From Candidatus Ruminimicrobiellum bubulum (GTDB taxonomy: Bacteria; Elusimicrobiota; Endomicrobiia; Endomicrobiales; Endomicrobiaceae): DNA of 64,000 bases. Positions 8,917-14,097 of this stretch are shown here, in pieces. The stretch lies in contig JAGCCP010000055.1 of NCBI GenBank assembly GCA_017651625.1, forward strand, positions 1-64,000, in the 5' to 3' direction. The position numbers and the translations under genes are program-made. Within the stretch, counting starts at the first letter, position 1, and each line of letters starts with the position of its first letter. The notes beneath the pieces were generated by a model. That model was not told the DNA's origin and searched no databases. It saw only the letters and a list, made by a program, of their open reading frames with translations.

Positions 8917-11067
8917 ATGTCATATATAGTTTTTATCATATCCGGAATCATTTCAATATTTTTGCAAATCTTTTTTGTTAGAGAATTTATACCATTATTT
9001 CACGGAAGTGAATTTGTATTGGGTATTGTCTTGGGACATTGGTTGTTTTCCGCAGCCGTTGCAAATTTTTTATTTCAATATTTTAAAAAAGTAAGAGATT
9101 TTTTCAGCAAATCAATCAATTCGTTTGTTACATTGATAATATTCATTTTGTTAACATTTGTATTTATAAGAAGTATAAATGTTTTTTCTTCTACTGATAT
9201 TACCATAGGAATATCTTTAAAGAGTTTGTTTTTTTACTCATTTATTGCAATTTTCCCTATAAGTTTTACATTGAACTTACTTTTAAATTTTTTAAAACAA
9301 AGCTTTTCAAATGTTCTGTATCAAAAAAAAATTAAAAGATACATTTGTGAAGCATTGGGCTTTGTCATAGGCGGAACAGCTTTTTCTTTTTTTATGTCGG
9401 ACATGTTAACGGCATCGATATTGTTGATAGTAATAATGCTTATTTGTTTTAACCTCATATATCTATGTGAAAGTATTATTGTGAAAATTTTTTATGTTGT
9501 TTTGTTTGCGATATCTCTTTACTTAATGTATTATCATAGTTTTGATATTGAAAAATTTGTAATTTTAAATAACTATTCCGATAACAATATTATAGATATA
9601 TCTTATTATAAAAATATTCAAAATATACTAACCGAAAAGAATGGAGAGTATTTCTTTTACAAAGATGGTAATTGTGAATTTGCATTACCAAGCCCGGATA
9701 TATTTGATGAACAAGACTTTGCGCATATACCTATTCTTCATCACACAAATCCTAAAAACTTATTGCTTATAGGCGGAATCAAATATTTACCGTCAATTAT
9801 AAAATACGATTTGGAAAAAATAGATTTTGTAGAAGAAGATAAAAATATATTAAAGATAACAAAACAAAATGTAAATAAATTTAACAAAATTTTCGAAGAT
9901 GAAAGAATTAATGTATATAGTAATGATTCAAGAGCCTTTTTAGGAAAAAGTAAAGAAAAATATGATGTTATACTTATAGGTACCGATATCCCTTTAAATA
10001 CATCAATAAATAAACTATATACTTATGAATTTTTCGATATTGTAAAAGATAAACTTACAGAAGATGGTTTCCTGGCCTTAAATCTTCCTGGTTCCATGGT
10101 ATATTCTCCATCGTTAATGTTTGAATTAAATGCTTCCGTATATTCCGCATTGAAAAAGACGTTTGATAATATACAGATTATTCCGGGAAAAACAAATATT
10201 TTTGTAGCATCAAAATCAAAAATGCCGTTTAGATTGCACATAAAAAAGAGATTGAAAAAAGTCGAAAAAGATACTGTTGCGCTATCAAAGTATTATGTAG
10301 ATGAAAGAATGGATACACAAAAGACAAAATGGTTAAACTTCCAAATAAGCAAATATGATAATGATGATATTGTAAATACGGATTTAAACCAAAAAGCAAT
10401 GTTATTATCGACAATGTATTGGCAGTCCGGTTTTTCTCCGTTTTTAATGAAATTTTTAAGAATTGTTATAGAATATTCTTATTTTATTATCCTTGTGGCC
10501 GTAATGTTGTTTTTTGCAAAAAAAATAAAATATTCGGTTACGGCATTTGTTTCCGGAGCAAGTGCTATGTGGTTACAGTTTATATGCTTTTGGGGCTTTC
10601 AAATATATGTAGGTCAAATATATCAATGGTTCGGATTATTGACCGCTATTTTTATGGCAGGTCTTGTTTTAGGTTCTCTTTATTCTAAATATTTTCAAAA
10701 ATATATGGCACTAAACAAAACTTTTTTCAGTAGTGAAATTCTTTATCTTTTATGGATATTGAGTTTTGTTGTTGTTATAGAGTATAAATTATTAAATGTT
10801 TATACTCTTTATCTTTTATCTTTTGGCGTCGGAGCAATTACCGGATTGGAGTTTGCACAACTAATAAAAATCTTTGGTATAATCAAAGAAAGTAAAAACA
10901 ATGTTCGAATTTTCTTTGCGGATGCATTAGGCGGAGCATTTGCAAGTTATGCCGGTGGAGCATTCATTATTCCTGTATGGGGCATAGAGAAAGCTTTAAT
11001 ATTTGTTTTGTTTTTAAAGTTTTTGATATTCACATGGTGGCAATATGATAAAAAACGCGGTTTATAA
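8917..11067 (+). CDS. Polytopic membrane protein with embedded spermidine-synthase-like domain
   Basis: 716 residues. There are about six hydrophobic segments in residues 1-215, a soluble middle (about 220-475), and about six more hydrophobic segments to the end, with glycines in the last one (DALGGAFASYAGGAF). The soluble part resembles the Rossmann-like methyltransferase/spermidine-synthase fold: LLLIGGIKYLPS, FVEEDKNILKI, NVYSNDSRAFLG, YDVILIGTDIPL and TEDGFLALNLPG. The glycine loop is weaker than the usual GGGDGG, and VEID is VEED, so aminopropyl-transferase activity is doubtful. The architecture matches fused MFS/spermidine-synthase proteins, whose substrates are mostly unknown. No SD is seen; translation probably couples to the gene upstream. 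Confidence 0.65.
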   Translation: MSYIVFIISGIISIFLQIFFVREFIPLFHGSEFVLGIVLGHWLFSAAVANFLFQYFKKVRDFFSKSINSFVTLIIFILLTFVFIRSINVFSSTDITIGISLKSLFFYSFIAIFPISFTLNLLLNFLKQSFSNVLYQKKIKRYICEALGFVIGGTAFSFFMSDMLTASILLIVIMLICFNLIYLCESIIVKIFYVVLFAISLYLMYYHSFDIEKFVILNNYSDNNIIDISYYKNIQNILTEKNGEYFFYKDGNCEFALPSPDIFDEQDFAHIPILHHTNPKNLLLIGGIKYLPSIIKYDLEKIDFVEEDKNILKITKQNVNKFNKIFEDERINVYSNDSRAFLGKSKEKYDVILIGTDIPLNTSINKLYTYEFFDIVKDKLTEDGFLALNLPGSMVYSPSLMFELNASVYSALKKTFDNIQIIPGKTNIFVASKSKMPFRLHIKKRLKKVEKDTVALSKYYVDERMDTQKTKWLNFQISKYDNDDIVNTDLNQKAMLLSTMYWQSGFSPFLMKFLRIVIEYSYFIILVAVMLFFAKKIKYSVTAFVSGASAMWLQFICFWGFQIYVGQIYQWFGLLTAIFMAGLVLGSLYSKYFQKYMALNKTFFSSEILYLLWILSFVVVIEYKLLNVYTLYLLSFGVGAITGLEFAQLIKIFGIIKESKNNVRIFFADALGGAFASYAGGAFIIPVWGIEKALIFVLFLKFLIFTWWQYDKKRGL

Positions 11068-11070
11068 AAT

Positions 11071-12534
11071 ATGATTTTGTTTTCATTTTTTACATTAGTA
11101 ATTTTGTTATCAACTGTTAAATACAAGAAAATTAGTAAATATAACAATATTTTGTACTTTTGTATATTTGTTTTTATATTTGTAACTTATTGTGTGTTTT
11201 CGGCACATTCTTGTTCGAGTATACATTTTTTACCCAAACGGGAATTGAACATATATTTTTTTACGGGTAATTTTTATAACTGGTTAATGACAAGCTTTTT
11301 TAATTTTAAATTAAATTTAGATGTAAGTGCGGATTTTGTTAATTATTTATCTAATTTATCTCCTGAATATTTTTTAAATCAAAGTTCGATCCCTATGGAA
11401 GTAAAAATGTTTTATGATACAAGTATTTATAACGATAAAATATACTTGTATTTCGGAATTACTCCGATAATACTTTTTTATGCTCCGTTTTATTTAATAA
11501 CACATTTTTTTCTTTCGGATCAAATAGTTTTTGCTGTTTTATCCATACTGATATTTGTTTTACAATTATTGATTTTTAAAAAAATTTTGTTATGCTTGAT
11601 TCAATCCGACATATTAAAGAAAGATATTACCGAATATTTTACTGTTACCTCTTTAATAATTTTATCTTTATGTAATGCTATTCCTTTGACTTATATTGAT
11701 ATCAGTGTTCATTCAATAGCAGTTTTAACTTCGATATTTTGCCAATTGGTTGCAATATATTTTTGCTTATTATTACAAGATGGTTGTACCAAAATAAAAA
11801 TGTTTATTATCGGATTATTTTTATCTTTAGCTGTAGGTAGCAGACCTTCATCCGTAATTTTGTTAATATTATTTTTTATTTTAATGGTAAGTATGTTCAA
11901 TATAAAAAAATATTACAAACAGTACATGTGCTTTTTTATTCCCGTTATTATTTATGGTACAATTTTAGCCGTTTACAATTATTTAAGATTTAACTCCGTT
12001 TTTGATTTTGGATTTTTGTACCAATTCAGTCCAACACATGAAAAAACGTTGGTTCGAGATTTGGGACATTCTTTTCCGGATTATATTAAATATGTGTGTT
12101 TAAATATTTTTAGCTTACCAAGATTTTCTTCCATTACTCCGTTATGTTTGTTTAATCGTTATGAACCTATGATTGGAGGAATGATTGCTTGTCCTATAAT
12201 ATTTTTTCTATTATTCATAAAAAGTTTTTATTCAAAAGCTTTTGGGAAAAACAAATATATTTGTTTTTTGTTTAGTATAATGTTGATTACAAGTTTAATG
12301 TATCTTTTAACAGATTCATATATAGGATCGAATGCAAGATATGTCGCCGAATATCTTTTTTTGATTTTGATTCCTAGCATTGTTTCCTTTTATTTTTTTG
12401 TTGAGAATACAAATAATATCAAATTACAAAAAATATTAAATTTCTTGTTTTTGACTTTGGTGTTTTTTAGTTTGTATGTTAATATTAATTTAATGAACTG
12501 TATATTTTTATTGTCTAAAGAAGGGATAATATAA
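11071..12534 (+). CDS. Polytopic membrane protein, possible GT-C-type glycosyltransferase
   Basis: 487 residues with about ten hydrophobic segments. A periplasm-facing stretch near residues 110-130 reads MFYDTSIYNDKIYLYFGITP, a pattern I associate with predicted GT-C-like membrane enzymes that use polyprenyl-phosphate sugars. LAVGSRPSSVILLI after the central helices is also typical. The canonical DD or DE motif of characterised GT-C enzymes is not obvious. The gene starts 4 nt after the previous stop and its own stop abuts the next start. It could instead be a transporter-like protein of unknown function. Confidence 0.5.
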   Translation: MILFSFFTLVILLSTVKYKKISKYNNILYFCIFVFIFVTYCVFSAHSCSSIHFLPKRELNIYFFTGNFYNWLMTSFFNFKLNLDVSADFVNYLSNLSPEYFLNQSSIPMEVKMFYDTSIYNDKIYLYFGITPIILFYAPFYLITHFFLSDQIVFAVLSILIFVLQLLIFKKILLCLIQSDILKKDITEYFTVTSLIILSLCNAIPLTYIDISVHSIAVLTSIFCQLVAIYFCLLLQDGCTKIKMFIIGLFLSLAVGSRPSSVILLILFFILMVSMFNIKKYYKQYMCFFIPVIIYGTILAVYNYLRFNSVFDFGFLYQFSPTHEKTLVRDLGHSFPDYIKYVCLNIFSLPRFSSITPLCLFNRYEPMIGGMIACPIIFFLLFIKSFYSKAFGKNKYICFLFSIMLITSLMYLLTDSYIGSNARYVAEYLFLILIPSIVSFYFFVENTNNIKLQKILNFLFLTLVFFSLYVNINLMNCIFLLSKEGII

Positions 12535-14097
12535 ATGAAAAAATTTTCTTTTATTTTAACAACTATATTTTTTTTATGTACTAATATTTTCGCACAAATA
12601 TCGGTGGAATATTTCGGTGGGGCCGGAAGAGTATCGGGTTCATGTGCTTTGTTAAAAGTTGATAATAATTCTGTCATTATAGATTGTGGAAGTTTTTATG
12701 ATGAGGGGAATTTACCATCGGACAATTCTGTAATAGATAAAAAGTTAATAAATGCCGATGCTATGGTTCTTACTCATGCTCATAATGATCATTCCGGAAG
12801 AATACTTCAACTTATAAGTGAGGGGTTTAACGGAAACATTTATTGTACCGATGCAACAAAAAAAATACTTTTTGAAATGTACGATGACGGTTGGAATTAT
12901 GATTATGTAAAGAAAAAATATTTTTGGTCAAAATCGAAAAGAGAAAAAATACAATTACGTGAAAGCAGGGAAAATTTAACTTTGCATTGGCATAGTGCCT
13001 GCAAAAATGCCGTTAAAAACAGAGAAGAAAGTAAAAAAGAAATATCAGTAATAGAGTTAAAAAATAAATTCGGGATAAATTTTAAAATTTGTAAGAATTG
13101 CTTAAATAAAGATTTGGAAAAATTACAAGATAGATTTGTTGGTGTAGAGTACAAAGATAATATAGATATAACAGATAAAATAAACTTCAGTTTGTACAAT
13201 GCCGGACATATTTCCGGTTCGGCAAGTGTTATTTTTTATGTTTATGATGAAAATAAAATTAAAACAGTTGCTTTTTCCGGAGATTTGGGTAGCGGATATT
13301 CAAAAATAACTCCCGATAAAGATATTATTCCTAAAGTAGATTATGTGTTCGTTGAAACTACTTATGGCGGTGTAAAAAAAGGTGTTAGTAATGCCGATTA
13401 CCAAAAATTTCAGGAAACAATTTCCGATGCCATAAAAAACGATAAAATTGTGTGGATTCCATCTTTGTCATTGCACAGAACACAAAAAGTTTTGTTCGAA
13501 TTAAAACAAGCACAAATTAACGGTTTAATACCGTATGATACTCCGGTATATAGCTTGTCTCCGTCGTCTAACGGACTTACCGAACGTTATGAAAAGGAAG
13601 CAAATTTTCCATCAAGAGACAGATGGTTTAAAGACGAAGTTTATCAAATAGGTTCTTTTTTGCCGGAAAACTATATAACAAAGAAACCAAAAGAATTTTC
13701 CGCTCCTTCAATAATAATTTCAGCAAGCGGTATGATGGATCAGGGTGTATCTTATGGCTTAATAAACAAACTTTTACCTTTGGATAATGTTGAGGTTTGT
13801 TTGGTAAGTTATGTCGGACCGCAAACTCCTGCCGGGAAACTGAAAAAGGGTGCAAAACATATAAGAACATCATATGGTACGGCAAAAGTTTTGGCGCATG
13901 TTAATGTTTTTGATATATTTTCGGATCATCCGGATATAGAAGAATTGATGAAGTGGTTATCTAAACAAGATTCAAATACAAAAATTTATTTAGTTCACGG
14001 AGAAAAAGATATATTGGATAAAGCTTTGGTACTATATAAAGAAAGAGGTTTTGTAAATACAAAAATTGCAGTTACAGGTGATAATATACTAAATTGA
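12535..14097 (+). CDS. Exported metallo-beta-lactamase/beta-CASP nuclease-like protein
   Basis: 520 residues. Residues 1-20 look like a signal peptide (MKKFSFILTTIFFLCTNIFA|QI), and the normal beta-CASP start (ISVEYFGGAGRVSGSCALL) follows at once. All metal and catalytic motifs are present: THAHNDHSG (His81, His83, Asp85, His86), NAGHISGSAS (His225), FSGDLG (Asp250), motif A VETTYGG (Glu274), motif B SDHPD (His465) and motif C VHGEKD (His488). Histidine in motif C is typical of RNA-acting members such as CPSF73/RNase J. An insertion around residues 150-200 carries HWHSAC and CKNC. Predicted location outside the cytoplasm is unusual for this family, and its substrate there is unknown. It closes the gene run ahead of mreB. 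Confidence 0.8.
   Translation: MKKFSFILTTIFFLCTNIFAQISVEYFGGAGRVSGSCALLKVDNNSVIIDCGSFYDEGNLPSDNSVIDKKLINADAMVLTHAHNDHSGRILQLISEGFNGNIYCTDATKKILFEMYDDGWNYDYVKKKYFWSKSKREKIQLRESRENLTLHWHSACKNAVKNREESKKEISVIELKNKFGINFKICKNCLNKDLEKLQDRFVGVEYKDNIDITDKINFSLYNAGHISGSASVIFYVYDENKIKTVAFSGDLGSGYSKITPDKDIIPKVDYVFVETTYGGVKKGVSNADYQKFQETISDAIKNDKIVWIPSLSLHRTQKVLFELKQAQINGLIPYDTPVYSLSPSSNGLTERYEKEANFPSRDRWFKDEVYQIGSFLPENYITKKPKEFSAPSIIISASGMMDQGVSYGLINKLLPLDNVEVCLVSYVGPQTPAGKLKKGAKHIRTSYGTAKVLAHVNVFDIFSDHPDIEELMKWLSKQDSNTKIYLVHGEKDILDKALVLYKERGFVNTKIAVTGDNILN

Follow-up and report, generated by a model that had tools for sequence, protein, structure and literature searches.

Beta-CASP enzymes are familiar as intracellular processors of RNA and DNA. 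The locus described here lies in a 64,000-nucleotide stretch of a Candidatus Ruminimicrobiellum bubulum genome (hereafter the window), and encodes a protein of this type that appears to begin with an export signal, raising the question of whether a bacterial family may have placed the enzyme beyond its inner membrane and, if so, what it would do there. The host genome belongs to the Elusimicrobiota, family Endomicrobiaceae, and its nearest relatives are rumen metagenome-assembled genomes (MAGs), one of them Candidatus Ruminimicrobiellum ovillum.

Domain make-up, active site and predicted fold

The gene is a single 520-codon open reading frame whose ATG follows immediately on the stop of the upstream gene (Table 1). 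Its product matches three Pfam domains above their cut-offs, namely Lactamase_B (4e-11), Beta-Casp (PF10996, 2e-10), and RMMBL (2e-9), and combines MBL motifs 1–4 with beta-CASP motifs A, B, and C, which together with the predicted fold place it in the beta-CASP family of MBL nucleases. All ten active-site positions, whose roles follow MTH1203, are invariant across the 36 aligned members, including the motif-C His that by rule marks the RNA type (PMC3095777). An AF2 model of the protein (pLDDT 92.4, pTM 0.90) has the Thermus thermophilus RNase TTHA0252 as its best PDB fold match (TM 0.73 and 0.88 by query and target length, respectively). All matches to NCBIfam were far below the curated cut-offs, and this is hence a beta-CASP enzyme outside every named equivalog. 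Across five pairs of family members, dN/dS ranged from 0.07 to 0.32, by which measure the family is under purifying selection.

A preliminary description, made from the sequence and its open reading frames, had drawn the same gene boundaries and the same beta-CASP assignment, with intact metal motifs and a motif-C His, and these agree with the domains, residues, and fold reported here. It had also spoken of an exported RNase: the export part is borne out by sequence, while the RNase part derives from the motif-C His rule, and we infer both nuclease activity and substrate. An exported metallohydrolase acting on something other than nucleic acids, for example an envelope phosphodiester, seems improbable to us. 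MBL enzymes do vary widely in substrate, and the leader-bearing family has an altered form ([HND]RTQK) of the GRxQE-type motif seen in relatives, but the nuclease-type beta-CASP motifs, B and C included, are all invariant and the RMMBL domain is present.

Table 1. Features of the predicted exported beta-CASP gene, in window coordinates
Feature	Position	Strand	Evidence
Predicted exported beta-CASP CDS, 520 aa	12535..14097	+	ORF, Pfam, orthologues, dN/dS 0.07-0.32
Sec-type leader, residues 1-20, predicted cut after A20	12535..12594	+	42/42 members, L003 start, AF2 helix 2-16
Motif 1, D50	12682..12684	+	36/36 identical
Motif 2, H81-A-H83-N-D85-H86	12775..12792	+	H81, H83, D85, H86 identical 36/36
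Inserted subdomain, ~residues 130-200	12922..13134	+	Ligand conservation; folds alone (pLDDT 92); not in cytosolic beta-CASPs checked
Putative insert ligands H151, C156, C186, C189	12985, 13000, 13090, 13099	+	Invariant but one Cys-to-His
Motif 3, H225	13207..13209	+	36/36 identical
Motif 4, D250	13282..13284	+	36/36 identical
Beta-CASP motif A, E274	13354..13356	+	36/36 identical
Beta-CASP motif B, H465	13927..13929	+	36/36 identical
Beta-CASP motif C, H488 (His, RNA type)	13996..13998	+	36/36 identical; rule from PMC3095777

Leader, Cys/His insert and family

The protein begins MKKFSFILTTIFFLCTNIFA/QISVEYFGGAG (the slash marks the expected cut), with a basic start, a hydrophobic core, and an Ala at the cut, after which the first strand follows. 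Scored by composition rules (basic n-region, hydrophobic core, small residue at the cut site), this is a Sec-type leader, and the pattern is conserved across orthologues: all 42 distinct members, i.e., the window protein and 41 relatives with identities to it down to 26%, have an export-type leader, and the cut-site residue is small, mostly Ala, in nearly all of them. Between the window and member L001, dN reaches 0.56 in the leader against 0.07 over the whole gene, and the leader pattern is nonetheless retained. In member L003, the leader ATG is the sole ATG, GTG, or TTG before codon 76 of the frame, so that this leader must be translated; since every other member has a leader as well, a downstream start is ruled out and the leader is no start-site artefact. 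The AF2 model places the leader in a helix at residues 2–16, with a break at 16–19 (pLDDT <50) before the first strand (22–28). The hydrophobic leader that had been noticed directly before the first strand is thus upheld, and the objection raised at the time, that homologues might align without it and use a downstream start, fails within the family and holds only for a separate cytosolic group. Where their start is readable, the controls begin at the first strand, namely the beta-CASPs of other Elusimicrobiota families, Verrucomicrobiota paralogues (cytosolic copies from the same genomes as the leader-bearing members), and a Bacteroidota plasmid copy.

The leader of one Verrucomicrobiota member (L007) is of the twin-arginine type (MNDRRSFIGL...), and TatC is present in the genome of that member (G295). 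TatC was not found in two Endomicrobiaceae genomes (G020 and G014), both of which have beta-CASP leaders of the Sec type, while other genera of the family do have it. An exported beta-CASP is well supported by these data, which are those of sequence comparison, and the protein would then be exported and its leader cleaved. A short hydrophobic segment behind a basic start would also fit an uncleaved leader serving the enzyme as an inner-membrane anchor, a reading to which we give little credence: both the conserved small residue at the expected cut site and the low-confidence AF2 break at the same place speak against it, and by the positive-inside rule an anchored enzyme would face outward regardless.

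Between motifs 2 and 3, the protein carries an insert with the conserved pattern H-x4-C...C-x2-C. Its sole ligand exception is a His at position 156 in member L056, and as His can bind metal too, this lone Cys-to-His change is as expected for a metal site rather than for chance conservation. Predicted on its own, the insert still folds (Table 1). It had no significant match in Pfam and no match with E below 5 among PDB folds, and the pattern was absent from the cytosolic beta-CASPs checked, including those of other Elusimicrobiota, the Verrucomicrobiota paralogues, and the Bacteroidota plasmid copy. A resemblance to Ada-type zinc domains found no support in either profile or fold search. Conservation points to a four-ligand metal site with a putative zinc role and occupancy, and the insert may represent a small zinc element of a new kind, short domains being often missed by profile and fold searches. 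Within the HWHSAC...CKNC stretch singled out in the preliminary description, only four residues are conserved: in HWHSAC the leading His and the Cys, and in CKNC the two Cys. The second His varies.

In a maximum-likelihood tree, the leader-bearing forms all lie on one side of a single branch (support 100/98), in a tree that contains two long rows (L065 and L007) of unsure exact placement; a phylogeny of signal-bearing members, suggested earlier as a check, therefore returns one supported group. Overall, the gene was found in 53 of 77 Endomicrobiaceae genomes, and every genome without it was less than 90% complete, so that all 32 near-complete genomes (completeness at least 90%, contamination at most 5%) carry the predicted exported beta-CASP. 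Outside this family, it turned up in 4 of 388 Verrucomicrobiota genomes (E <= 1e-35). Further phyla were covered by a pattern scan of genome contigs, a scan of viral contigs, and a plasmid search, and the viral and plasmid homologues read were ordinary beta-CASPs without the insert, which we did not count as members. The protein is the only one with an RMMBL domain in the window's genome, and likewise in 5 of 6 other Endomicrobiaceae genomes checked. We found no description of exported beta-CASPs in the open-access PMC papers searched.

Neighbouring genes and candidate roles

The gene order in the window is a membrane SpeE-like gene, an LA_3751-like gene, the beta-CASP gene, and mreBCD. The first of these (8917-11067), whose polytopic membrane product contains an internal domain resembling spermidine synthase (PF01564, 1.4e-22), is conserved beside the beta-CASP gene across genera g1, g4, and g7. 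The LA_3751-like membrane gene (11071-12534) is present in the window and in L005 and L006; L001-L004 lack it, and there the beta-CASP gene follows straight on the SpeE-like gene. Adjacency to the SpeE-like gene and mreBCD is confined to the window's genus and near genera, and neither was retained as a candidate partner. In other genera, the upstream neighbour is most often a conserved gene of ~550 aa that looks like argS, and the downstream ones are most often genes for a membrane-anchored TPR protein and for a small membrane protein; no neighbour was retained throughout the loci read. The TPR gene lies directly downstream of the beta-CASP gene in 10 loci. We rejected it as an obligate partner: its orthologue is not linked to the beta-CASP gene in genera g4, g7, and g10 or in the window's genome, and in the reduced, four-contig Endomicrobium genome G014 it is a pseudogene with several TAG and TAA codons (C1:1039926-1040640, adjoining L060) beside an intact beta-CASP gene, which means that the two genes are separable. 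LpxC is also a fragment in G014. A TPR protein encoded beside ComEC (g1, g4, g7) was likewise rejected as a bridge, being a multi-TM protein with similarity limited to the repeats.

Periplasmic degradation of RNA (or DNA) for nutrient recovery, as originally proposed, is a possible role that we hold only tentatively. It is consistent with the leader and the RNA-type motif C, as well as with the locus of genome G575, in which the beta-CASP gene adjoins a hydrolase gene. The latter (L170:5260-6222) directly follows the beta-CASP gene. Its product belongs to the endonuclease/exonuclease/phosphatase family (PF03372, 7.5e-13) and has a leader-like N-terminus; it may be a further exported nuclease or phosphodiesterase, encoded on the same transcript. 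However, no nucleotide uptake or nucleotidase genes were recognised beside the beta-CASP gene in the Endomicrobiaceae neighbourhoods read, and the gene is lost, along with the competence genes, from those endosymbionts whose genomes are the most strongly reduced. Nutrient scavenging is possible, yet nothing that we found favours it.

A second candidate role, and a narrower form of the exported-nuclease reading that we prefer, is modelled on EndA in Streptococcus pneumoniae: the protein would be a periplasmic nuclease of DNA uptake, degrading the non-imported strand for the nuclease-less ComEC of Endomicrobiaceae. We consider it unlikely, if less so than the two readings set aside above. In the window's genome and three relatives, the OB and channel domains of ComEC are present and the MBL nuclease is missing. 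Across Endomicrobium, in a presence table compiled by hand, the beta-CASP gene co-occurs with ComEC (phi 0.86) and DprA (0.86), compared to 0.20 for LpxC and 0.10 for MutS. The beta-CASP, ComEC, and DprA genes all have in-frame stops in G170 (Endomicrobium genus g2), a joint decay, and are all intact in the reduced genome G014. Competence genes are retained and expressed in Endomicrobium (PMC8809381), ComEC variants without the MBL domain exist, with the separate nuclease EndA as a precedent, and the nuclease that serves an MBL-less ComEC is a stated gap for Helicobacter pylori (PMC12455585). On the other hand, the joint absence falls mainly in one clade of ~10 reduced genomes (MutS tree) and so reflects few independent losses, some gene absences reflect incomplete MAGs, the beta-CASP gene is unlinked to com genes, and its motif C has the RNA-type His. 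Degenerate ComEC nuclease tails also occur in other Elusimicrobiota that do not carry the exported beta-CASP, and we accordingly dropped the idea that ComEC nuclease loss is specific to beta-CASP carriers. Endomicrobiaceae ComEC (L113-L116) ends ~100–160 aa past the channel domain, and that of other Elusimicrobiota (L117-L121) extends further, in tails that resemble inactive MBL remnants and lack HxHxDH. The joint occurrence of the beta-CASP gene with ComEC and DprA is a weak hint of DNA uptake rather than scavenging; if such a role were true, it would identify the nuclease serving ComEC variants without a nuclease domain, and would give a fold familiar from RNA and DNA processing inside cells a new role in the periplasm.

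Taken together, the window protein is probably an exported, zinc-dependent beta-CASP nuclease, one of an exported subfamily acting in the periplasm or beyond. The leader, the active-site residues, the metal-site pattern, the purifying selection, and the grouping of the leader-bearing forms can all be read from the sequences themselves. The protein would be made with a cleavable Sec leader (Tat-type in one distant relative), cross the inner membrane, and work in the periplasm or outside it, and the H-x4-C...C-x2-C element would bind one structural zinc, replacing the segment found there in cytosolic relatives. Most likely, the enzyme would cut nucleic acids outside the inner membrane. Of the initial interpretation, export (by sequence) and fold stand, and the RNA and nutrition parts are still proposals. 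An entire bacterial family, genome-reduced termite-gut endosymbionts among them, would thus keep an exported beta-CASP, which is the only RMMBL-type one in most of the Endomicrobiaceae genomes checked and bears an undescribed putative zinc element. What is new is this predicted exported variant of an otherwise familiar enzyme type.

Comparison with known systems

A PDB sequence search with the window protein matched Cas14, aCPSF1, and TTHA0252. The last of these (PDB 2dkf, 3ie1) shares the MBL/beta-CASP/RMMBL order, the metal motifs, and the fold at 21–22% identity, but is a protein of 431 aa of the cytosolic type without a leader. As judged by eye on homologues of its type, TTHA0252 also lacks the H-x4-C...C-x2-C insert, and has GGR after the ASGM motif, where the leader-bearing family differs. 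Cas14 of type VII CRISPR was the best PDB sequence match (2e-35), but the window protein scored 169 bits against a cut-off of 800 for the corresponding family (NF045584) and is predicted to be exported, and none of the neighbouring genes read was recognised as a CRISPR gene. With aCPSF1/FttA and CPSF-73, it has in common the catalytic core and a fold match, along with a profile match to TIGR03675 (6e-51) that reached 173 bits against a cut-off of 580 for aCPSF1; unlike them, it is bacterial, has no KH domains, and would be exported. RNase J, also a beta-CASP RNase, gave a weak profile match over residues 25–114 (TIGR00649, 30 bits against a cut-off of 400) and is cytosolic. The ComEC nuclease domain belongs to a membrane channel and comes without a beta-CASP domain, and the fold of EndA is unrelated to MBL/beta-CASP. 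Both are nevertheless extracytoplasmic, as the exported beta-CASP is predicted to be, and the ComEC domain shares its MBL fold (PMC12455585).
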